The notes beneath the pieces were generated by a model. The model was not told where the DNA came from and searched no databases. It saw nothing but the letters and a program-made list of their open reading frames with translations. Positions 5,414-46,048 of a stretch of DNA of 46,048 nucleotides are shown here, in pieces. Position numbers and translations under genes: made by a program. The number at the start of each line of letters is the position of its first letter. The first letter of the stretch is position 1. The stretch comes from a virus. The DNA is taken from IMG/VR virus record IMGVR_UViG_3300025154_000159, positions 1 to 46,048 of that record. One strand, given 5' to 3'.

Positions 5414-6712
5414 TCAGCTAACTAGCTTGAGGCTCCGGCGCTTGCGCTGTGCGCCGTCCCGCGACGGTCTCAACTGATGTGCCGATTTGTGCACCGCGTT
5501 TTGCCCCTGGGCAAACGCTTCGATCGCCGCCAGCGCCGGGTGCTGCCGGGCACGCTCGAGCTCGCGCTCGAGGCTCCCGACGACGGCGTGCGCGTAGTGG
5601 CGCTGGAGCATCGTCAGGCTCGTGCCCGTGACCTGCGCGACGACCTGAGCGGACACGCCGGCGACGAGCAGATGGGTGATGCGAGAGTGGCGGAGGGCGT
5701 GGAGCGGCGTGTCCCCGGCGAGCCGCTCCCCCGCCTCAAGGCGGTGGTTGGCGACGCGCAACAACCGGCGCCACACGTAGCGCCAGTTGTCGGCGCGCGT
5801 CCCGGTGCGCGGCGCGACCAGCACCGGGGAGTCCGGCTTCGGCCGCCGGGCGGCGTACGCCTCGCGCAGGTGCGCGGCGAGGACCGGGTCGAGCGGACAC
5901 ACGACGTTCCTGTGCCCCTTCGTCTCCGGGAAGACGATCAGCCCGCGCGCCAGCTCGACGTTGCGCCAGAGCAGCGCGTCAATCGCCTCGGGGCGGCCGC
6001 CCGTGTAGTAGCCGAGCATCACCCGCGTAACGATCGGGAGGTACTGCCGCCGGCGATCCTCGCGCGGCAGCCGCTCCCAACGCTGCCAGACATGGCAGGC
6101 GGCGAGCACCGCGCCGACCTGGCGCTCGGACAGCGCCGGGGGCTGGCGGAGCGGCTCCGGGAGGTTCCTCAGTCGGCGCATGGGGTTCTCGCCGAGCAGC
6201 TCGCGCTCGACGGCGAGGTTCAGCGCAGCGCGGATGATGTTGACGTGGGCGTTGCAGCTCCGCGGCCCGAGCTGGCGCTGCTCGCGCAGCTCCGTCCGCC
6301 AGGCGGCGACACGGCCGGCGGTGAGCTCGACCGCCGGCGTCTCCGCGCCGAGCGTGTCACGGATGGTCCTCGCCCGGTACGCCTCGTTCCCTTCCCACCG
6401 TGTCCCGCGTTCGCGGCAGTCCGCCGCGTAGGCGTCGAGGACCTGGGCGAGCGTCACGGGCGCGGCGTGGGCCTCCTCAACGCGCAGGATCTCCGCCTCG
6501 ATCTCCCGGATGATCTCCGCCCGGCGCCAGGCCGCCCACTGCCGCGACCGCGCGAGATCCGCGGGGTACGGCGAGCGCTCGCGGGGCCAGTGCACACGGC
6601 CGATGCTGTCCGCGTACCGGAAGCGGAGGTCCCAGACGCCGCGGGCCTCGTCGCGGGTGAGGTAGGAAGGCGCGGTGCGAGGACGGCGCGGCATGACCAC
6701 TATGGTGGGCAC
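5414..6712 (-). CDS. int: Tyrosine integrase
   Basis: 432 residues from GTG at 6712, or 426 from ATG at 6694; no clear ribosome site decides. It should catalyse site-specific recombination between phage attP and host attB. Catalytic residues are in place: Arg240 (GGRPEAI), Lys265 (ETKGHRN), His338 and Arg341 (LHALRHSR), Tyr373 (RHYAH). A core-binding SAM-like domain lies around residues 85-185, and an N-terminal part of about 80 residues with Arg/Trp-rich strands fits an arm-binding domain. The 3' end of the gene lies 29 bp from the tRNA-derived core and contains two of the four TTTGCCC repeats (5500-5515). Confidence 0.93.
   Translation of the reverse strand: MPTIVVMPRRPRTAPSYLTRDEARGVWDLRFRYADSIGRVHWPRERSPYPADLARSRQWAAWRRAEIIREIEAEILRVEEAHAAPVTLAQVLDAYAADCRERGTRWEGNEAYRARTIRDTLGAETPAVELTAGRVAAWRTELREQRQLGPRSCNAHVNIIRAALNLAVERELLGENPMRRLRNLPEPLRQPPALSERQVGAVLAACHVWQRWERLPREDRRRQYLPIVTRVMLGYYTGGRPEAIDALLWRNVELARGLIVFPETKGHRNVVCPLDPVLAAHLREAYAARRPKPDSPVLVAPRTGTRADNWRYVWRRLLRVANHRLEAGERLAGDTPLHALRHSRITHLLVAGVSAQVVAQVTGTSLTMLQRHYAHAVVGSLERELERARQHPALAAIEAFAQGQNAVHKSAHQLRPSRDGAQRKRRSLKLVS
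5500..5515. promoter_or_regulatory. Candidate integrase arm sites, right arm (inverted pair)
   Basis: TTTGCCC at 5500-5506 and its reverse complement GGGCAAA at 5509-5515 form a near-palindrome inside the 3' end of the integrase gene. The same heptamer occurs twice on the other side of the attachment core. Two flanking pairs about 50 and 115 bp from the core resemble the P and P' arms of lambda-type attP. The coding constraint on this stretch is a caveat. Confidence 0.5.
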
Positions 6713-7227: not shown

Positions 7228-8030
7228 GGCGATGGCGCCGGGCTAGGTTCTGGTCCCTTGACCACACGCCCCACTTGGAAGACAAACGTGTACTCGACCT
7301 TCCGATCGCCAGCGACGATCGGAAGGAGCACCCGCATGGTCCCATCTGGGGCCAGCGCGGCGGCGACCTCGGCCTCGGTCTTTCCCTCCAGAATAAAGAG
7401 AGCAAGAAGCGGTCGGATCGTCCACTGGCCTGGGACGAAGCGCGAACCCTCGCTCCAGTGGATGTTGCTGGCGGGAATGACTGCGTCGCTGTGCTTCGTC
7501 CCCCGAGGCACGATCGTCGGGGGCAGCGATTTCCCGGTGTCCATGTACTTGACGCCGGTGTGTATCACGCGGTCGGCTGTACCTTCCAGACCCACGAAAG
7601 CCGCCTCATCCCACTGCAGCGCGAGCGTGGACTCGGCCAGATTCTCAACGATGAAGTGGAGCATCTTGGAGTCCGGCTTCCATGCGATGGCAATCAGCTC
7701 ATCACCATAGTTGTCCGAGCCGGCGGCAACCCGTTGAAGGTCTCCCCCCACTGGCTGCTTTTCGACTGCAGCCAGGGAGAGCGTGTTCCACCCCTGCCAG
7801 TGTGGCTCCGGCGGCTTCTTGGGCTTCTTGGCTTCCGCGACCGAGACGAGAGCTGCAAGCCCCGCCGCCGCGATGATCATCCCGCAGCCCATCGCGCGGC
7901 CAGCCTTCCGCTGCCGACCGGATTTTGTCAGGGGAATCCCGATCTGTCGTGAGAGCTTCCCCTTCGCGGCCGAGAGGCCGATCGCACGCTTCCATGAAAA
8001 CGAGAACCCGTAGGACCGCCCGCGACTCAT
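7224..8030 (-). CDS. Membrane-anchored conserved-looking protein, lysogenic-conversion candidate
   Basis: 268 residues. The N-terminal 45 residues are basic and carry a distinctive pattern (YGFSFSWKRAIG, then IGIPLTKSGRQRK) that I have an impression of meeting in other phage hypotheticals, unnamed. A hydrophobic segment, CGMIIAAAGLAALVSVAEA (about 49-67), looks like an anchor or an internal signal sequence. The remaining roughly 200 residues would be outside the cytoplasm. They include a block around VGLEGTADRVIHTGVKYMD and PPTIVPRG that reminds me of small bacterial envelope/lipoprotein domains. Its ATG overlaps the stop of the lamin-tail gene. Location next to the repressor, on the lysogenic strand, suggests expression in the prophage. 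Function unknown. Confidence 0.65.
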   Translation of the reverse strand: MSRGRSYGFSFSWKRAIGLSAAKGKLSRQIGIPLTKSGRQRKAGRAMGCGMIIAAAGLAALVSVAEAKKPKKPPEPHWQGWNTLSLAAVEKQPVGGDLQRVAAGSDNYGDELIAIAWKPDSKMLHFIVENLAESTLALQWDEAAFVGLEGTADRVIHTGVKYMDTGKSLPPTIVPRGTKHSDAVIPASNIHWSEGSRFVPGQWTIRPLLALFILEGKTEAEVAAALAPDGTMRVLLPIVAGDRKVEYTFVFQVGRVVKGPEPSPAPSP

Positions 8031-8677
8031 GGCGCCTCCTGATCTGCTTGCGGGAGTCTACGCCGCAAGTGGCCGGTCGCGACCCCGTGGCGCCTGTTGC
8101 GCGGCACCGGCGGGCCGGCGGTGAAGTCGGCCGCGTTGTCTCCGGTGTCGGTGGCCCCGGCGCCGAGACGCAGCGCCGCCGCTGTGTTGTTGAGTGTCGG
8201 TGCTGCGTGTCCACCTTCTGCGCACGACGCCGCGCCGTACCCGACGAGGTCGGCGATCCCGCCGCCTGCCGGGCACGAACCGACGAGCTGCACGGCCGAC
8301 GCCGCGAGCGCCACCCTGCCGGAGATCGCGTTGATAGGGATGTTGCCCTCGGCATCGGGCACCGGGAGCGCTGGGCCACCCGCGTCGCCGGCATGTTCCG
8401 CGATGAGGTAGTACGTCCCCGGGTGCATCGTGCCCGTGAGCGACGTCGACGCCCAGTCGCCGCTGGTGGGCGGCGCGTACTGCACGGTCCAGCCGTCGAG
8501 GTCCACAAGCTCGGGGCCGCGGTTGTAGAGCTCAATGAAGTCGCGGTCGAAGAGACCGCCGAGGTTGCCGCCGCCGCCGTAGACCTGCGAGATCACGACT
8601 TGAGCCTCACCAGTGGTTGCAAGGACGCCGGCGAGAGCAACCCACGCGGCGCAGCTTATGATGCACCGTTCGCCCAC
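8027..8677 (-). CDS. Secreted lamin-tail-domain (LTD) protein
   Basis: 216 residues. A signal peptide (about residues 1-25, core CAAWVALAGVLATTG, likely cleaved after GEA) is followed by a bacterial lamin-tail domain: VVISQVYGGGG, then DFIELYNRG..VDLDGWTVQY, then GTYYLIAE and DLVGYGA. LTDs are immunoglobulin-like beta domains found in secreted bacterial nucleases and adhesins; alone they are thought to bind. No nuclease or protease domain is attached. The gene overlaps the next one by ATGA and lies between repressor and integrase, so it is probably a lysogenic-conversion gene whose product leaves the cytoplasm. I know of no such protein as a standard phage component. Confidence 0.8.
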   Translation of the reverse strand: MGERCIISCAAWVALAGVLATTGEAQVVISQVYGGGGNLGGLFDRDFIELYNRGPELVDLDGWTVQYAPPTSGDWASTSLTGTMHPGTYYLIAEHAGDAGGPALPVPDAEGNIPINAISGRVALAASAVQLVGSCPAGGGIADLVGYGAASCAEGGHAAPTLNNTAAALRLGAGATDTGDNAADFTAGPPVPRNRRHGVATGHLRRRLPQADQEAP

Positions 8678-9372
8678 CAGACCACCCGTCCGACGAGGAT
8701 CTCCTGCAACGGCCGCCCCTTAAGGTCGATCGCGAAGGGAAGGTGATGCGACTCCGGGTTGTCTGGCGTGCAGACGAGCTGATCTCCGCGCAGAGAAACG
8801 CGCTTCACGGTTACGCCCTCGGCGCCCGGGTCGCGCACCACGAAGATGCGCTTGTTCATGGCCGCAGCCCACTTGTTGATCGGCCTCGTGTCGATCGCGA
8901 TCAGTGCGCCCGGCTGGATCGTGTCGAGCATTGACTCCCCGAAGTGGCCGCCGGCGAGGTGAGCGAGGTAGAGCTTGTTGTGTGGCACCCCGATGCGATC
9001 GAACCATCCGGCGCGGAAGGCGTACCGCTCGCTCGAGAAGCGGTCGAAGGTGAGGAGCGGGACACCGGCCGCGAGCTTGTCGGCGAGACACGGCAGAGCG
9101 ACGAAGTCGCTGCCTGCGACCGCCACGTCCTCAGGCTGAGGCGCCTCCGTCAGAGCGAGAAGGTAATCCGCTGGTAGCTTCAGCTCGCGGCAGATTCGCG
9201 CCAGCGTCCACCAATCGGGCTCGGTCTTGTCGCTCATCCACTGGGAGACTGCTGCTTCGGTGATCCCAAGCTTCTCCGCGAGCTTCCGCTGCGTCATACC
9301 CTCGCGACGAACCCACCTCGACAGCCTGTCCAGCACAACTTCTTTCCACGCTTCACGTTCCGGTGCTGTCAT
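8656..9372 (-). CDS. CI/LexA-type phage repressor (XRE HTH + S24)
   Basis: 238 residues from ATG at 9372; the frame is open further upstream but that would run through the operators. Residues about 14-70 are an XRE helix-turn-helix (MTQRKLAEKLGITEAAVSQW). The C-terminal part is an S24 peptidase-like domain with Ser147 (GESMLDTI) and Lys190 (TVKRV), and a candidate self-cleavage Ala102-Gly103. It should therefore hold lysogeny and be inactivated by RecA-dependent cleavage. It faces the cro-like gene across a three-operator control region, and AAGG in operator O1 may serve as its ribosome site. Its 3' end overlaps the lamin-tail gene by 22 bases. Confidence 0.93.
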   Translation of the reverse strand: MTAPEREAWKEVVLDRLSRWVRREGMTQRKLAEKLGITEAAVSQWMSDKTEPDWWTLARICRELKLPADYLLALTEAPQPEDVAVAGSDFVALPCLADKLAAGVPLLTFDRFSSERYAFRAGWFDRIGVPHNKLYLAHLAGGHFGESMLDTIQPGALIAIDTRPINKWAAAMNKRIFVVRDPGAEGVTVKRVSLRGDQLVCTPDNPESHHLPFAIDLKGRPLQEILVGRVVWWANGAS

Positions 9373-30093: not shown

Positions 30094-31638
30094 GTGAGCG
30101 CGATCGTGCCGGTCGAGAGCCGGTCGCTTATTTCCCGCGTCCAGCAGCATGACCGGCTCCGCTCCTACCTCACCGGCATCACCCCCGAGTACGCCACCAG
30201 CCTCGTGCGCGGCGCCTCCTACTCGGCCCGCGGTCAGACGAAGTTGTTCGAGACGATCCTTGCCCGTGACCCGATCGCCGGCACCGCGGCCGACAAGCGC
30301 ACCGGTAACCTGCTCTCGGCAGCGTGGACCTTTGCAGCGGTCGACGAACCGACCGAGCGCGCAGCGGCGCCGCTCCTCGCGGCCCTCCCACCGGCGGGCT
30401 TCCAGCGCGCGATCCAGTGGCTCGGCCAGGCGCCGCTCTACGGCTACGCGGTCGCCGAGATCGAGTGGGCGCCCGACAGCTCCGTCGCGCGCCTCATCCC
30501 GATCCCCTACGATGCGCTCGACACCACGATGGGGCAGCTCGTGCTCTACCTCGACGGCCACGCAACGCCGATCGTCGAGGTGCAGGGCTCCACGCAGACC
30601 GCGTTCTTCGGCCAGCCGGACCCCGAGGTCCGTCGCCGGCTCATCGTAGTGACGGCCGACGAGCACGACCCGGCCTCTGCCGCGATCCTCCGCCGCGTAG
30701 TCGGGCCCTGGCTGGTGTCGAGTTTCCTCATCCGCGACTGGGCGCGATACCTCGAGCGGTTCGGGAACCCGCTAGTCACCGGGAAGTACCCGCGCGGCGC
30801 GCCGCCCAACGACACTGGCCAGGCCGCGCAGGACTCGCTCCTCGAAGCACTGGAGGCGCTGCACGCCAACGCCCGCGCCGCATTCCCGGACGATATTGTG
30901 GTGGAGCTGCTGGCTGATGCGCGGGCCGACGCGTCGGGCGCCTTCGACAAGCTGCTCGACCGTTGCGAGCGCCGGATCGTCCGCACGATCCTCGGCCAGG
31001 ACACGACGACAATGGCCGGCGAGTACGGATCGCGGGCGTCCGACGAGGTGCGTGAGCGGGTCGAGGACTCGATCGCCGAGCGCGACGCCGGGATGGTGCA
31101 GGAGGCGCTGAACGAGCAGCTCGTCAAGCCGCTCGAGGCGGTGAAGACCAAGGGCCGACGGGCGATCAAGCTCACGTACAACTGGAAGCGCGAGCAGGAC
31201 CCGGTGAGTCGGTCGCAGGTCATCGTGAATGTGGCGGCTGCCGGCGGCATGTTCGACTGGGCGCCCGTGCTCGAGGAGTTCGGCCTCCAGCCCGCCGGGA
31301 TGCCGACTCCGGCCGCGGCCAGGGCGCTGGTCGCCGCGTTCGCCCGCCAAACCACGGGCACATCTGGTGACGCCCTCGAGTCGCTGACCGCCGGCGGCGC
31401 CGAGGAGCTGATGCGCCACCTGCGGCGCGCGCTGCCCGCCCTCATCCGGGACGCGGTACCGGAAGATGCGACGCCAGAGGAGGCACGCCGCGCCCTCGGG
31501 CGGCTGATGACCGCAGAGAACGTCGGCCCACTCGCCGAGATCCTCGAGCGCGCGATCCTCGCCGCCCGCTACAACGGCCAGAGCAACGCCCAGGCGTGGA
31601 TCGAGCGCGCGCGCAAGCGCCGCGCCGCGGGCTCCTAA
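30094..31638 (+). CDS. Portal protein, Mu gp29-like (DUF935)
   Basis: 514 residues from GTG at 30094. The dodecameric portal through which DNA enters and leaves the head. It shows the DUF935 pattern of Mu gp29-type portals: FLIRDWARYLERFGNPLVTGKYP, then VRTILGQDTTT, DSIAERDAGMVQEALNEQLVKPL, and a tail of helices ending near RARKRR. In DUF935 proteins the ERFG.P...GKY block is a hallmark. Length is normal. It follows the first late promoter-like element. Confidence 0.92.
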   Translation: MSAIVPVESRSLISRVQQHDRLRSYLTGITPEYATSLVRGASYSARGQTKLFETILARDPIAGTAADKRTGNLLSAAWTFAAVDEPTERAAAPLLAALPPAGFQRAIQWLGQAPLYGYAVAEIEWAPDSSVARLIPIPYDALDTTMGQLVLYLDGHATPIVEVQGSTQTAFFGQPDPEVRRRLIVVTADEHDPASAAILRRVVGPWLVSSFLIRDWARYLERFGNPLVTGKYPRGAPPNDTGQAAQDSLLEALEALHANARAAFPDDIVVELLADARADASGAFDKLLDRCERRIVRTILGQDTTTMAGEYGSRASDEVRERVEDSIAERDAGMVQEALNEQLVKPLEAVKTKGRRAIKLTYNWKREQDPVSRSQVIVNVAAAGGMFDWAPVLEEFGLQPAGMPTPAAARALVAAFARQTTGTSGDALESLTAGGAEELMRHLRRALPALIRDAVPEDATPEEARRALGRLMTAENVGPLAEILERAILAARYNGQSNAQAWIERARKRRAAGS

Positions 31639-31648
31639 GGGGGACAGC

Positions 31649-33445
31649 ATGAGACGGATCTGCACCGCACTGCTCGCGGCGCTGGTAGCCGCGACTGCCA
31701 GCGGCTTGACGTCCCGGACACTGAGCGGCAAGGCCGTACTTCCGGACGGCGTTACGGTGCTCGCCGCGGGCTCGCTCAAGGTCGAGCCGGCGCCGTCCGC
31801 GACGCACGTAGCGTCCACGGCCACCGGTGTGGTCGTGGGCGTGATCCGCTACACGATCACGGCCGGCAACCTCGTTTGCACGACGGGCTGCAGCATCGCG
31901 ACCCCGGCCAGCTACAAATTCAGCCTGTACGGAGTCATCGACGGGCGCTCGCAGTCGGTGCTCGAGTGGAGCTCGACGATCTCCGACACTCCGAGCACGC
32001 CACTCACCATGCAGGACCTATACACGGCGAGCACGATACCCTTAGAGGTCGCCCCGGACTTTGTGCGCGTCGGCGACCTCCTGACCGTGCTCGAGGCCCC
32101 CCCGGGCACTACCGACGGCTACGTGGCGACAGTCCAGGCCGACGGCACAACGGTCGCATTCGAGGCGGTCTCCGCCGGCGACATCGAGGGTGTCACGGCC
32201 GGCGCCGGCCTGACGGGCGGCGGCACGACGGGCACGGTCTCGCTCGCGGTGGGTGCGGGCACCGGAATTGAGGTGGCGGCGGACACGGTGTCCGTGGCTT
32301 CGACGCAGGCGACAGACGCCGAGGTGGCGACGGCCGTCTCCGATCACGCGGGCGCCGCCGATCCGCATACCGGCTACCGGCTGGAGTCGGTCGCCATCCC
32401 GGCGGCCGACCTCCCGGTGATGGTGGGTGACACGGGGGCGGGTGGCGTGCGGGGCGCGGTGGGCGCGCCGGCAGCCGGAGACGCGAGCAAGTTCTGGCGG
32501 GGCGATGCGACCTGGCAAACGGTGAGCACCGCGACGCCAACGCTCGCCGCAGTCACCGCCGCGGGCGCCTCGACCACGACCGCGATCACCCTTGGTGGAG
32601 CCTCACCGCTCGTGCTGGACGGCGCGACTGCCGGCACGAATGCGACCACCATCACGGTCACCGACCCGAGCGCGGCGAACGTCCTCACGGTGCCCGACGC
32701 GAGCGGCACGCTGGCGCTCACCTCGGACATCCCGGCGACGCCGACGCTCGCGCAGGTGACGGCGGCGGGCGCGACGACTGCGACGGGTACCACGTTCACC
32801 GGCGCTCTAACCCGCGGCACGCCGATTACTCCCGATGCTACGGCCGACACCATGCTTGCCGCGTCGAGTGCCACGCAGACGCCGCTCGTGATCCAGGGCG
32901 CTGCCGCGCAGAGCGTGCCGTTGCAGGAGTGGCAGACGAGCGCGGGGGCGGTGGTTGGCTCGATGACGGTCGGCGGAGCGCTCATCACTCGGACCTTAGA
33001 CGTCAATAGCGCTGACACGAGCTTCAGCCCGATTAGCTGGATAAAGGATGTAGCACGGGGATACCTGTACGCAGACACCTCGGGCATAGGAATCGCCGAT
33101 GGCAGCGGAGCAAGCTTCAATGATATGGTTTACCTCAACTCAGGGACTGATTCAATCACGTTCTACACCAATGGGGCCGCGAAAGCGGTAATCACGTCTA
33201 CAGGTGACGTAACGGTCGGCGGCGGCTACGCCGGTGGCAGCGGTGCAACCGTTTCGACCGCCGGTGTCATCCAGGCCAACGGCGCGATCACCAGCGACGG
33301 GGTGGTGACCGGAGCGAGCTTTTCGGCCGGGGCATCGCCGGGCATGACTACCGTGGTCACCGTCCGAGACAGCGGCGGCGCGGCGGACTGCACCATGACC
33401 TTCACCGGCGGCATTCTGACCGCCACGACGTGCAGCCACACCTAG
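31649..33445 (+). CDS. Fibre-like protein in the head operon, with signal-like N-terminus
   Basis: 598 residues from ATG at 31649. The N-terminus (RRICTALLAALVAATASGL) looks like a signal peptide, which is strange for a virion protein. The body is low-complexity Thr/Ala/Gly beta sequence with repeated elements (ATPTLAAVTAAGASTTT and ATPTLAQVTAAGATTAT; TLALTSDI), typical of trimeric phage fibres. Near the C-terminus ITFYTNGAAKAVITSTGDVTVGG matches a pattern common in tail-fibre repeats. A segment at about 32990-33220 is clearly less GC-rich, suggesting domain exchange. It sits between portal and gpF-like genes, where no fibre is normally found; a head fibre is possible. Confidence 0.7.
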   Translation: MRRICTALLAALVAATASGLTSRTLSGKAVLPDGVTVLAAGSLKVEPAPSATHVASTATGVVVGVIRYTITAGNLVCTTGCSIATPASYKFSLYGVIDGRSQSVLEWSSTISDTPSTPLTMQDLYTASTIPLEVAPDFVRVGDLLTVLEAPPGTTDGYVATVQADGTTVAFEAVSAGDIEGVTAGAGLTGGGTTGTVSLAVGAGTGIEVAADTVSVASTQATDAEVATAVSDHAGAADPHTGYRLESVAIPAADLPVMVGDTGAGGVRGAVGAPAAGDASKFWRGDATWQTVSTATPTLAAVTAAGASTTTAITLGGASPLVLDGATAGTNATTITVTDPSAANVLTVPDASGTLALTSDIPATPTLAQVTAAGATTATGTTFTGALTRGTPITPDATADTMLAASSATQTPLVIQGAAAQSVPLQEWQTSAGAVVGSMTVGGALITRTLDVNSADTSFSPISWIKDVARGYLYADTSGIGIADGSGASFNDMVYLNSGTDSITFYTNGAAKAVITSTGDVTVGGGYAGGSGATVSTAGVIQANGAITSDGVVTGASFSAGASPGMTTVVTVRDSGGAADCTMTFTGGILTATTCSHT

Positions 33446-33456
33446 AGGGAGGGATC

Positions 33457-33825
33457 ATGAGGACACGCATCGGGCTCGGCATCCTGGTAGCGGCGCTACT
33501 CGTCGCGGCACAGGCTGACGCGCAAGCCGTTACCAAGCGGCTCGATCTCCGGTTCGGCTCCGCGACCGTGGATGGTGCCGCCGTCTGGCAAGAGATCGAG
33601 GACGCCGTGTGCGCCCACTACGGCTACCAGGCGACGGTGCCTGACCCCGACTCGATCGTGGTCGGCGCGACGAAGCCCAATCCCGAGACGCGCGCGCAGT
33701 TCGTGCGGCGGCAGATCAAAACGTTCCTCCGCGATCACCGGACCGCGTACCTCGACTCGCTGGCCGCCGAAAGCGGCAAGGCGGCAGCGCGGGCGACGCG
33801 CAAGATCGAGGCGGAGGCTCCATGA
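33457..33825 (+). CDS. Putative secreted small protein
   Basis: 122 residues from ATG at 33457 (GAGGGAGGGATC before). Signal peptide-like start, RTRIGLGILVAALLVAAQADAQA, with cleavage expected after ADA. The mature part is alpha/beta with AVWQEIEDAVCAHYGYQ and a basic C-terminus. Together with the preceding gene, whose N-terminus also looks like a signal, it forms an odd pair inside the head genes. Family not recognised. Confidence 0.6.
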   Translation: MRTRIGLGILVAALLVAAQADAQAVTKRLDLRFGSATVDGAAVWQEIEDAVCAHYGYQATVPDPDSIVVGATKPNPETRAQFVRRQIKTFLRDHRTAYLDSLAAESGKAAARATRKIEAEAP

Positions 33826-33929
33826 CCACGACGACCGGAGTCGAGTGGGTGCTGGTGGGCAACAGGTGGGTGCTCGTGAGGCAGCCGCTCACCATACCGC
33901 GCGAGAGCACGACGGCGGAGGCGACGTAG
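33822..33929 (+). CDS. Very short possible gene
   Basis: 35 codons, ATG overlapping the previous stop. GVEWVLVGNRWVLVRQPL looks like a small beta hairpin of the type found in short phage linker genes. Ends six bases before the next ATG. Low certainty. Confidence 0.4.
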   Translation: MTTTTGVEWVLVGNRWVLVRQPLTIPRESTTAEAT

Positions 33930-33935
33930 CGCACC

Positions 33936-34682
33936 ATGCCCCGAGCCCCGCGCACGCCGCCCGCTGACGCCCTCTGGTCGCCGATGCCACCGGCCCGCAT
34001 CCTCGCCCTCTTCCGCGATCGGTTGCTACTGCCCGCCGACGTTGTGCGCGCCGCCGGTGAGGGCGCCTACAACCTCGCATGGGCGGTAGCCGGCGTCACG
34101 GAGCTGAGCGTCCTGGAGCGACTGCGGGACGCGCTTTTCGACATCATCGGCGAGGGCGGAACATCACGCGACTGGCTCGACTCGCTCGACGATATCCTCG
34201 ACGACACGGGATGGGGTACCACGCGCGCCCACGCCGAGATGATCTTCCGGACCACGCTCGCCAGCGTCTATGAGGCCGATCGGCACGATCGGATCATGGC
34301 GAGCCCGCACGTCCAGTACCTGGTCTTCGACGCGATCAATGACGATCGGGTCCGGCCCGAGCACCTGGCGCTCGACGGGATGGCGTGGAAGAAGGACGAG
34401 TTCCCGGCGGAATATTGGGCCCCGCTCGACTACGGCTGCAGGTGCACCGTTTTCCCAGCCGACGCCGATGAGCTGGGCGACCTCGGCGCCACCGAGCAGC
34501 CGCCTGGGCTGGCGCGCGACGAGGATGGTGAGATGGTGCATGCACAGGAGGGCTTCCGCGCCGCGCCATCGATCAGCGGGTTGACCGAGCAGCAGCGGCA
34601 GGAGCTCCTCGACCGACTCGCGCTGGGCGGGTGGGACGTTTTACCACCCCCCACGCCGCCACCGCCCGATCGGTCGCCGTAG
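33936..34682 (+). CDS. Head morphogenesis protein, Mu gpF/SPP1 gp7-like
   Basis: 248 residues. The family carries a minor head protein bound to the portal. Key signs: a helical middle with AEMIFRTTLASVYEADRHDRI, then DRVRPEHLALDGMAWKKDEF and the closing APLDYGCRCTV, the hallmark of the Phage_Mu_F domain (R..H..L.G......D.F....PP..YGCRC). A Pro-rich C-terminal tail follows. Position after the portal is standard for Mu-like heads, apart from the inserted fibre and secreted genes. Confidence 0.9.
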   Translation: MPRAPRTPPADALWSPMPPARILALFRDRLLLPADVVRAAGEGAYNLAWAVAGVTELSVLERLRDALFDIIGEGGTSRDWLDSLDDILDDTGWGTTRAHAEMIFRTTLASVYEADRHDRIMASPHVQYLVFDAINDDRVRPEHLALDGMAWKKDEFPAEYWAPLDYGCRCTVFPADADELGDLGATEQPPGLARDEDGEMVHAQEGFRAAPSISGLTEQQRQELLDRLALGGWDVLPPPTPPPPDRSP

Positions 34683-39930: not shown

Positions 39931-40908
39931 ATGGCGATCCGACGGAACGATGAGGAGCGGCTGGTTATCTGGCCCGAGGCGACGCTCGGCACCCGGCCCG
40001 GCGTGCCCGATGGGAAGGTGATGCGGATCTTCGACCAGGACCTCGGGTGCACCGAGGCGATCGTCGAGAACAACGTCATCCGCTACGACATGAACACCGA
40101 CCAGCCGGGCCGCGGGCGCTGGAAGCTCGAGGGCAAGAAGGCCAACGTCCCGCTCGAGCGGTCGGAGAGTGGCATCTGGCTGAAGGCGTACTTCGGCGCG
40201 CCGACGACGACGGGTGCGGCCGATCCCTACACCCACACGTTCAAGCGCACGGTCGCCAACGGCCCGAGCTTCGGCGCCGAGGTCTGGAACGCTGCCAACT
40301 CCAAGGGCGATCAGCTCGACGGGCTCGTGGTCTACGGCCTCGAGTTCACGATCGACGCCGAGGACGGCCTGATCTCGATCGGCGTTATGATCGCGGGGAT
40401 TGGCAAGCAGACGCTCGACCAGGGGGTCGAGGTCGACGCCACTCCCACGGCCTTCACCGACGACGAGTTCCTCAAGCTCGATGCACAGATCAAGATCGAC
40501 AACACGGTCTCCGACCACGTCGTCTCCGGAACCGTGCGCCTGGAGCGCGAGATCACGATCCGCGCGATCCCCGACACCAACGACTACGCGAAGCACATCA
40601 TCCTCGGCAAGGAGAAGGCGAGCTGGAACCTCACCGGCCTATTCGACTCGACCTCCGAGGTGAGGGTGTTGGCGACGGGGCGGGCGCAGCACTCGATCGA
40701 GCTGCTGTTCGGCCACCCGAGCAGTGCGAACCACTCGCTCTCACTCAAGAGCGAGAAGGCCCTGCTCTACCTCACCAACAACCCGTCGGTGGGTCAGGGC
40801 AACGAGCGCGAGATCACGATCGAAGGCCAGGGGCACCCGAGGGGCGCGGCGAGCGCCTCGCAGATCCTCGCCGTCCTCAAGAACCCCGACGCGGCGATCA
40901 GCTTCTGA
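39931..40908 (+). CDS. Major tail tube protein
   Basis: 325 residues from ATG at 39931 behind GGAGAGGAG. Beta-rich; the start RNDEERLVIWPEATLGTRPG and the later GLEFTIDAEDGLISIGVMIAG and SGTVRLEREITIRAIPD are like siphovirus tube proteins of the long (over 300-residue) type. No sheath gene precedes it, so the tail is non-contractile. It stands before the tail chaperones and the tape measure, the canonical order. Confidence 0.82.
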   Translation: MAIRRNDEERLVIWPEATLGTRPGVPDGKVMRIFDQDLGCTEAIVENNVIRYDMNTDQPGRGRWKLEGKKANVPLERSESGIWLKAYFGAPTTTGAADPYTHTFKRTVANGPSFGAEVWNAANSKGDQLDGLVVYGLEFTIDAEDGLISIGVMIAGIGKQTLDQGVEVDATPTAFTDDEFLKLDAQIKIDNTVSDHVVSGTVRLEREITIRAIPDTNDYAKHIILGKEKASWNLTGLFDSTSEVRVLATGRAQHSIELLFGHPSSANHSLSLKSEKALLYLTNNPSVGQGNEREITIEGQGHPRGAASASQILAVLKNPDAAISF

Positions 40909-40920
40909 TTGGGAGGCTAC

Positions 40921-44600: not shown

Positions 44601-46048
44601 TCTCCCCGCCATTGAGATCTCACTCGAAGCGCAGACCAAGGACTTCTCGACCTTCTGGCGCACCTTCCTCACCGGCACTCTGCCCCGAGCCGTGTTCCAG
44701 GAGTACAAGCCGGCACTGACCAGCGCCATGGAGGCGTTCGGCATCGAGACGGGCCGCATCAACCTGGAGCTCGCGAAGTTCAACACGGCGCCCTTCGAGG
44801 AGGCAGCGCAGGCGCTCAAGGCGTGGATCGGTGCGATCGTCGCCGTGCGTGACACGATCGAGCTGACCGGGCTTTCCTTCGAGGACTTCAAGGCGCGCGC
44901 GCTTGAGGGGCCGCTCGAGGCATGGCGGCGCGACAACGCCAAGGTGCAGGCCGATCTCCTGCGCTGGTCGGGGCAGCTCTCGCAGCTCGACACCGAAGAG
45001 CAGGTCGAGCAGGCCGGGAAGATGGTGCAGGCGATCAACGCGCAGATCGACGCGAACGCCAAGCTGCTGGCGACGCTCGACGATCTCCGCCAGAAATACG
45101 TCGTGCAGCCGCGCACCTTCGACCTGGCCGTGGGCGCCGGCGGATCCGACATGCTCGAGCGCGTCGACGCCGTGCTCTCGGCCGTGGTCACGGAGCTGGC
45201 GGACGCCGCGACCATCGAGCAGCTCGTTGCGGCTGCGGAAGGGGCGGACGCCGCGCGCCAGGCGCTCAAGGACCTCGCTGACGTCTACGCCGAGGCGGTC
45301 GCCGACTTCACCACCGCCCGCGGCGAGCTTGACGCCCTGGTCGCCGCGATGACTCCAGTGCAGCCGCTCGCGCTGGAGGACGCGCTCGCTGGCGTCCAGG
45401 ACCTCATGACCGGGATCGACCAGCTCGCGCCGGCGGACGCGGCGGCGCGGGTGCGCGAGGTCACCGCCCTGCTCTCCGAGCAGTACGAAATGCAGAAGGC
45501 GAACCTCGAGCAGATCACCAACATCCAGGAATCGCTCGCCGCCTCCTGGGATAAGCTCTTCGGTAAGTGGGCAGAGGGGAAGCTGTCGCCCGAAGAGGTG
45601 ATGGCGCAGCAGCAGGCGGCCCTCTCAGGGATCGTCGATCAGCTCGCTGCTGCCGCCTCTCCTGAAGAGATCGACCGGCTGGTGCGGCAGGCACAGGAGC
45701 TAGCCGGCACGCTCTGGGATAACCTCACGAGCCAAATCGAGGCGCTGGCCGGCGAGGGCGAGGATACGTCGGCGCTCCTGGCCCAGCGGGACGCTGTAGA
45801 AGCGCTGGCGCAGGAGATCCGCACCGCGTCGGAGGCGCAGCTCGAGACGTATCGCCAGCAGGTCGAGGCGGAGATCGAGCTCATCAAGGCGGCGGCGATC
45901 GCCGCGGCCGATATCCTCGACACGCGCGCGTCCCAATACGACGAGATCCTCAGTCAGGTGCAGGCCGCGGACGCCGCGATCGCCGACGCACTCGAGGGAA
46001 TCGGCACGCGCCTCGACTCGTGGGAAGCGGAGATCGCGGCATCGAACG
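41659..46048 (+). CDS. Tape-measure protein, 3'-truncated by the window
   Basis: 1463 codons without a stop; the end is outside the window. It starts at ATG 41659. N-terminal tape-measure signs: KAEFDASGAIIGLKKVQSEAS, QATAKLNAVYKATGG, VLLTFRSIQ, then SVTMLGKALEDPIKGITSMTRVGV. Residues 444-653 are seven 30-residue tandem repeats. A Gly/Ala-rich hydrophobic segment (GIGLMFGTVGAIVGAIIGGIAGYLT, near 44330-44400) is a membrane-span candidate, and long coiled coils follow. The protein sets tail length and helps DNA cross the inner membrane. At about 0.15 nm per residue the tail would be over 200 nm. Confidence 0.9.
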   Translation, partial: MAGAVADVLFKAEFDASGAIIGLKKVQSEASATKPKTDSAASSFKNLATAAAGAAVIVKLGGFLKDCASAAMESEQATAKLNAVYKATGGVVGMSTQQLGKLASEIQGATGVSDEMVMSAEAVLLTFRSIQGEAFPRTMKAAADLSAVFGQDLNGSVTMLGKALEDPIKGITSMTRVGVTFSEEQKKVIAKMVETNHLADAQAEILRVVELQVGGTAEAMGKTLAGQLGILNETWGDAKEAIGGFVTGAIAATGIVPALTSVLRGMTEGLTEMAGKTEVANTAQELTAHSLELLIPKRQAEIAALQEQMRHTDHSSDAYEAQKNKLMSLIEELHSFEQQLPQTTAQEDAAADAAKRVGDESEGSKKKVAELGDLLDQYYGEGKTYSATATIAADTSGASTTLIGFLEWVNQQFPPGVAREIALEAATAQAEGDLAGFMERVAEILPPTLPTTVAVGAGTAREDAAAVAADMRAAVPLSVPTAADFAAGVALAAAETYADGLTGAVPGSATTTALFAPGSALGDAAAYGTGVRDAVPGSASTTALFAPGSAISDATRLGRDLAGAVPGSVTTEAAFVPGTTVADARRLGSDVLGALPPNVPLSAQLIKGSTVADAGKLGRDVAGAIPPDAATVTAKFADLGARAVIINFLGKVAKDFPPDKAAEITAHFRDAQARGDVTGFLGYVNTEIPAEKRQELTAAFVDVQARLDAQKLKTDMPSLVGKSYTTILQANPDPARTKANELAAELAAGAVAIPPWQIRLEATIEADEAKAQAEAEFKAFFDYNIAPLLADSITQGIVDGLAGEGIDEAVKALFDALGNLGRSMLKTFLEGIISSKDVRQSLIDAGVLTSNGRFNAAGTLSAAGGMVYQAGQQRGSRGMGALGGAMSGAGIGLMFGTVGAIVGAIIGGIAGYLTSGTRTEGYKIWMREREGETAGIRAGMWYGPTGKPEEQEMAREMLSKYHKAAGFFRDVLDMLEAPLGDLPAIEISLEAQTKDFSTFWRTFLTGTLPRAVFQEYKPALTSAMEAFGIETGRINLELAKFNTAPFEEAAQALKAWIGAIVAVRDTIELTGLSFEDFKARALEGPLEAWRRDNAKVQADLLRWSGQLSQLDTEEQVEQAGKMVQAINAQIDANAKLLATLDDLRQKYVVQPRTFDLAVGAGGSDMLERVDAVLSAVVTELADAATIEQLVAAAEGADAARQALKDLADVYAEAVADFTTARGELDALVAAMTPVQPLALEDALAGVQDLMTGIDQLAPADAAARVREVTALLSEQYEMQKANLEQITNIQESLAASWDKLFGKWAEGKLSPEEVMAQQQAALSGIVDQLAAAASPEEIDRLVRQAQELAGTLWDNLTSQIEALAGEGEDTSALLAQRDAVEALAQEIRTASEAQLETYRQQVEAEIELIKAAAIAAADILDTRASQYDEILSQVQAADAAIADALEGIGTRLDSWEAEIAASN
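42988..43617 (+). repeat. Seven 30-residue (90-bp) tandem repeats in the tape measure
   Basis: Seven successive units of exactly 90 bp, no gaps. Consensus A(V/I)P.SVTT.A.F.PG followed by DA..LG.D..G. Units 3-5 are closest; units 1 and 7 are degenerate. Protein is conserved much better than DNA. Each side is flanked by a related block (FLEWVNQQFPPG... and FLGKVAKDFPPD...). Tandem units of fixed length in a tape measure fit a regular stalk. Confidence 0.8.

Follow-up and report, generated by a model that had tools for sequence, protein, structure and literature searches.

A fibre-like protein and its companion, both with predicted signal peptides, are encoded between the portal and gpF-like genes of a temperate phage with a Mu-type head

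In the textbook view, tailed phages assemble wholly in the cytoplasm. The tail fibres of Caudoviricetes are receptor-binding virion proteins, and in the Mu-type head operon the genes are ordered portal, gpF, protease and capsid. Lambda Lom is an outer-membrane beta-barrel. Its gene is flanked by tail genes and encodes a signal peptide (PMC12309495), and putative superinfection-exclusion proteins with signal peptides are also described (PMC11480721). Our searches of open-licence papers turned up no description of a phage fibre that has a signal peptide.

We describe two genes, ORF598 and ORF122, that resemble each of these systems in part. The gene order on both sides of the pair is that of a Mu-type head operon, and the phage differs from that arrangement in having this additional pair at the portal-gpF joint. 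Like the tail fibres of Caudoviricetes, the ORF598 product has A/T/G/V/S-rich repeats, with fibre-repeat similarity to environmental phage fibres. It differs from them in its predicted Sec signal peptide, its C-terminal two-cysteine domain, its placement between portal and gpF and the absence of any hit in Pfam, PHROG or NCBIfam. Like Lom and similar late-operon morons, ORF598 is a signal-peptide gene within a structural operon. In contrast to the Lom barrel, its product reads from the sequence as a repetitive, fibre-like protein, and it comes with a companion whose relatives elsewhere mostly lack a signal peptide.

The window analyzed is the whole of record IMGVR_UViG_3300025154_000159 (46,048 bases). 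Its gene content is that of a temperate, long-tailed phage whose head is of the Mu type. In addition to the genes in Table 1, it contains a large terminase, a tape measure, a Mu-like protease (PF10123) and a major head protein (phrog_1005). We found that a second contig, 3300025030_000235 (L015 1-11500), overlaps both ends of the window: window position 46048 is its position 5662, and the window start is its position 9242. The two therefore imply a circular map of ~49.6 kb. The second contig supplies 3579 bases with tail-tip genes that are absent from the window. These bases complete the tape measure gene, encode a hub attachment protein (PF09931) and a 360-residue protein, and begin the tail hub gene. 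The hub has 1176 residues (PF13550), and the lysis genes come next. Near the integrase gene we also observed a gene on the minus strand (8027-8677) that encodes a signal peptide and a lamin tail domain (PF00932, E 4e-12); its product is a candidate lysogenic-conversion protein.

The portal gene, ORF598, ORF122 and the gpF-like gene follow one another on the plus strand, with intergenic gaps of 10 nt and then 11 nt. Between ORF122 and the gpF-like gene are 110 nt that include a 35-codon frame (MTTTTGVEWVLVGNRWVLVRQPLTIPRESTTAEAT, 33822-33929, plus strand), which overlaps the ORF122 stop codon as ATGA and ends just upstream of the gpF-like gene. Thus, genes of 598 and 122 codons do lie between portal and gpF-like genes, as a first-pass annotation of this DNA had proposed; the reading frames and the matches to PF06074 and PF04233 agree. 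Contig 3300025030_000714 has the same four genes in the same order, gapless, colinear and identical across them. The arrangement is therefore not a join from one assembly, and we ruled out an artefact of that type. At the end of that contig, there is a cluster (window positions 40514-40911) of 28 of its 30 differences from the window, mostly in a phrog_290 tail gene.

Table 1. Features of the window discussed in the text
Feature	Coordinates	Strand	Basis
Integrase	5414-6712		Basis for temperate lifestyle
Mu-type portal gene	30094..31638	+	PF06074 (Portal_Mu), E 1.7e-59
Ribosome-binding site of ORF598, AAGGGGGA	31637..31644	+	Sequence
ORF598, fibre-like gene	31649..33445	+	ATG open frame, 598 aa
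Signal-peptide region of ORF598, MRRICTALLAALVAATAS	31649..31702	+	Two arginines, hydrophobic stretch, small residues after
C-terminal two-cysteine domain of ORF598, residues 566-598, Cys581 and Cys595	33344..33442	+	Motif, predicted sheet
Ribosome-binding site of ORF122, GAGGGAGGG	33445..33453	+	Sequence
ORF122, companion protein with signal peptide	33457..33825	+	ATG open frame, 122 aa; family alignments A2, A3
Signal-peptide region of ORF122, first 24 residues, MRTRIGLGILVAALLVAAQADAQA	33457..33528	+	Hydrophobic stretch mean 2.95, A-x-A site
Companion-family core of ORF122 (GYQ...NPETRAQFVRR)	33529..33822	+	Family HMM E 1.2e-27, window among seed rows
gpF-like gene	33936..34682	+	PF04233 (Phage_Mu_F), E 2.9e-15

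We found that this position is unusual. A portal motif was scanned as a DNA pattern in viral contigs, a six-sequence portal alignment being too divergent for scanning, and the sample comprised the 64 Mu-like contigs with both genes among the matches listed, close relatives included. The portal-gpF gap in these listed matches was <200 nt in 47/64, 230-415 nt with no credible gene in 9/64, and at least 600 nt in 8/64. The earlier statement that the F-like gene directly follows the portal in Mu-type heads holds as a rule, since nothing gene-sized lay between them in 56 of the 64 contigs among the matches listed. A signal-peptide fibre was seen by eye at the joint in none of the eight listed contigs with gaps of at least 600 nt. 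In Mu-like isolates, the next head gene comes directly after the portal or after one very small frame. Several structural-type genes, with no obvious signal peptides, occupy the joint in L111 (3126-5509) and L160 (6069-8716); one of the L111 genes matches phrog_3758, a virion structural protein.

Start sites downstream of the hydrophobic parts would have spoken against the first-pass annotation. Instead, AAGGGGGA and GAGGGAGGG, both strong Shine-Dalgarno sequences, serve the upstream ATGs. Downstream start codons that would drop both signal peptides were ruled out, as no Shine-Dalgarno-like sequence was found at the next in-frame starts (TTG codon 20 and GTG codon 37 of ORF598; GTG codon 38 of ORF122). 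A promoter scan for sigma-70 types and a search for terminators found none in the interval, so co-expression of the pair with the head genes is likely. GC content and third-position GC of the two genes are similar to those of their neighbours, except in the 3' part of ORF598 (32849-33298), where GC is 58-61% compared to about 70% elsewhere. This dip suggests that the fibre tip was exchanged recently.

ORF598 encodes a fibre-like protein, as had been proposed: its composition is rich in A/T/G/V/S, with repeats, and its middle is similar to a fibre-like repeat in L003 (E 2.4e-9). There was no match in Pfam, PHROG, NCBIfam or PADLOC, including no barrel family (Pfam, NCBIfam) and no known decoration or head-fibre profile (Pfam, PHROG), and none that was credible among PDB sequences; a decoration or head-fibre protein could, however, lack such a match. 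With tblastn, neither ORF598 nor ORF122 had a relative in isolate phages at E 0.01 or E 1. The monomer model of ORF598 is too poor (mean pLDDT 45) for its fold, whether trimeric beta-helix or barrel, to be judged, and its predicted strands are unreliable outside the C-terminus. Reading the translations of the circular map by eye, we noticed no fibre-like gene other than ORF598 and the tail hub, and because of this ORF598 may be the general adhesion fibre of the phage. The large C-terminal part of the 1176-residue hub could also bind the receptor itself.

Both proteins begin as Sec signals do, with positive residues, a hydrophobic core and a stretch of small residues. In ORF598 the hydrophobic stretch is 12 residues long (mean Kyte-Doolittle 2.57). 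Both N-termini passed a signal-peptide rule that ~3% of their shuffled versions passed, in agreement with the first-pass description of signal-peptide-like ends; the calls come from this simple rule, not from a trained predictor. Judged from these ends, both products are probably exported through Sec.

We found that the C-terminus of ORF598 recurs in viruses on proteins with signal peptides. The last 30 residues hold C-T-x-x-F-x-x-G-I-L-T-x-x-x-C, and a small three-stranded sheet is predicted there (block pLDDT 79-94), the only reliable part of the model. The cysteine pair is placed at the ends of this predicted sheet, which fits disulphide formation outside the cytoplasm. An exact scan for CT..F..G[IL][LM]T...C over 2.9 million viral contigs gave 61 stretches. 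The motif was no more than three residues from the end in 43 ORFs of >150 residues, with 29 distinct C-termini (the window's own included); it is three residues from the stop in ORF598 and 0 to 1 in the other viral ORFs. Within this set, which was pre-selected by the motif, the C-terminal part of ORF598 matched L067 (E 5.7e-6) and L079 (E 2.4e-5). Among bacterial and archaeal genomes totalling 257 Gb, the motif plus a stop codon matched once; the protein that ends there is not comparable to ORF598, and this match looks like chance. The best match to the domain in isolate phages had an E value of only 6.

Of the distinct start-complete ORFs with the motif, 18/20 (window included) passed the signal-peptide rule. 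The remaining two have signal peptides evident by eye (MRTIIITALLPFSLLAQ and MKLAIGVILGARLLLAQ), giving 20/20, although the 20 are not all independent and one N-terminus is common to several. By comparison, 12/138 other long ORFs in the same contigs passed the rule, and several of those 12 are fibre-like. Signal peptides here had been called very unusual. That is so when compared to textbook phages, but they are recurrent in environmental contigs on fibre-like proteins with this C-terminus. In five contigs (L036, L048, L066, L073 and L074), the gene after the signal-peptide fibre encodes a different protein of ~100 residues, which also begins like a signal peptide and contains a helical stretch of the QLRLENLQL type. 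L040, which is from a different phage, has a 232-residue gene with a signal-peptide-like start (7327-8025, minus strand) near its major head protein gene.

ORF122 belongs to a previously undescribed family of phage proteins with a core of about 85 residues (GYQ...NPET[KR].QF..R), here called the companion family. Members were found with a pattern from the NPETRAQF stretch of ORF122 and by an alignment scan. Residues Y57, N75, P76, T78, Q81 and F82 are invariant in an alignment of 17 sequences (A3), which ORF122 fits. The family has no match in Pfam or PHROGs, and a scan of 398 Pseudomonadota genomes found no member, a weak negative as it was run without a positive control. The companion gene is directly 3' of a fibre-type gene in L200, L203, L205/L230, L206, L209, L210, L211, L212 and others, with gaps of -46 to +36 nt in several unrelated phages (11 nt for ORF598 and ORF122). 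In L217, L229 and L231 it has the major head protein region on one side and fibre genes on the other. A signal peptide is missing from most members. It is present in three, from unrelated phages, in which signal sequences unrelated to one another directly precede the shared core: ORF122, L227 (MKTLTVALLVLLAAPAMA) and the ctLpZ231 companion. The model of ORF122 consists of a helix, a short hairpin and a 42-residue helix, with pLDDT mostly >90 in the core. A fold search with this predicted structure found nothing at E 0.001 among viral models and a best Z of 2.7 among the PDB chains compared; these weak matches do not amount to a new fold.

Where both N-termini are visible, fibre and companion agree. 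Bacteriophage sp. ctLpZ231 (MW202444.1) encodes a fibre of 1253 residues (UOF76952.1; L235 36356-40117) and then a companion (UOF76953.1), both annotated as hypothetical and both with signal peptides. We assigned UOF76953.1 to the family from its gene order, a CDAYGYQ stretch and a hit to a consensus-like query that was weak (E 0.04). The ctLpZ231 pair is similar to that in the window in the order of fibre and companion and in the signals on both. It differs in its location after the tail hub gene, in the portal and capsid genes of the phage, and in the fibre C-terminus. The latter is a different cysteine-rich terminus, CSDCTIASPCASGGTGALAKRLNGAWVCN, and fibres that end in this way may form a second exported group. 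Signal peptides are therefore on both partners in two unrelated phages, as read from sequence. Neither partner has one in L200, L206, L209, L211, L213, L212 and L230 (about 5 independent groups), and there were 0 discordant cases in this small sample with two positive cases. The presence of a signal on the companion wherever the fibre has one argues that both act in the same compartment.

Based on these results we suggest, with a probability of roughly one half, that ORF598 and ORF122 are a fibre-companion cassette whose products are exported, used for receptor binding and joined to virions after export. The sequence shows how the genes are ordered and where they start, the signal-peptide-like N-termini, the place of ORF122 in the companion family, the tendency of that family to come after fibre genes, the signal peptides on both partners in two unrelated phages and the conserved cysteine domain. 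The cassette, usually found after tail-tip genes elsewhere, sits in the head operon in this phage. We infer that both products would indeed be exported, together via Sec and late in infection. Outside the cytoplasm, a disulphide between Cys581 and Cys595 would stabilise the fibre tip, and the long-helix companion would assist the fibre. Exported fibres would wait in the periplasm, and would meet and join virions at or after lysis. Virion assembly in tailed phages is cytoplasmic, and therefore an exported fibre needs a way to meet virions; we know of no route or precedent for this. The most likely use of an exported fibre would be receptor binding by the phage.

The main rival, which we consider unlikely but worth weighing seriously, is that the pair is a moron in the head operon. 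Both proteins would be exported late or in the lysogen and remain in the periplasm or on the surface of the host, where they would block receptors or debris and never join virions; the proposed benefit is superinfection exclusion or protection of progeny. The signal peptides on both proteins, their insertion at a normally gene-free joint and the integrase of a temperate phage are consistent with such cargo. So are the precedents of Lom, a signal-peptide gene inside a late operon (PMC12309495), and of the putative superinfection-exclusion proteins (PMC11480721). However, the scan for sigma-70 types revealed no promoter of the pair's own. We favour receptor binding over cargo for the envelope because ORF598 is the sole fibre seen besides the hub and because related fibres and companions occupy tail-fibre loci.

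It is less likely still that ORF598 is an ordinary virion fibre assembled in the cytoplasm, with its N-terminal hydrophobic helix an attachment or membrane-contact element and not an export signal. The position inside the head operon, the virion structural genes (one of them phrog_3758) at the same joint in L111 and L160, and the signal-peptide-type gene near the major head protein in L040 point in that direction. In contrast, the unrelated companion has the same kind of end, where visible only when the fibre does, and both ends have the charged start, hydrophobic core and small-residue stretch of Sec signals. The earlier proposal of a head fibre, a decoration fibre fixed to the capsid, is very improbable: it was based on gene position, a weak guide to the site in the virion, and although the companion genes of L217, L229 and L231 also lie beside a head region, most related cassettes are at tail loci, with companions directly after tail-fibre-type genes in unrelated phages and the ctLpZ231 pair after the tail hub.

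Two sequence handles for finding fibres in uncultured phages emerge from these results, the cysteine domain at the C-terminus and the companion family with its NPET.QF stretch; the libraries searched (Pfam, PHROGs, NCBIfam, PADLOC) contain neither. More broadly, and only as a tentative and rather doubtful proposal, a class of environmental tailed phages may send receptor-binding fibres and a dedicated companion through Sec and complete its virions outside the cytoplasm, a two-compartment assembly. If this is true, the recurrent fibre genes with export signals, together with a companion whose signal accompanies that of the fibre, would imply that the adhesion proteins of some phages are finished, or displayed, beyond the cytoplasm.
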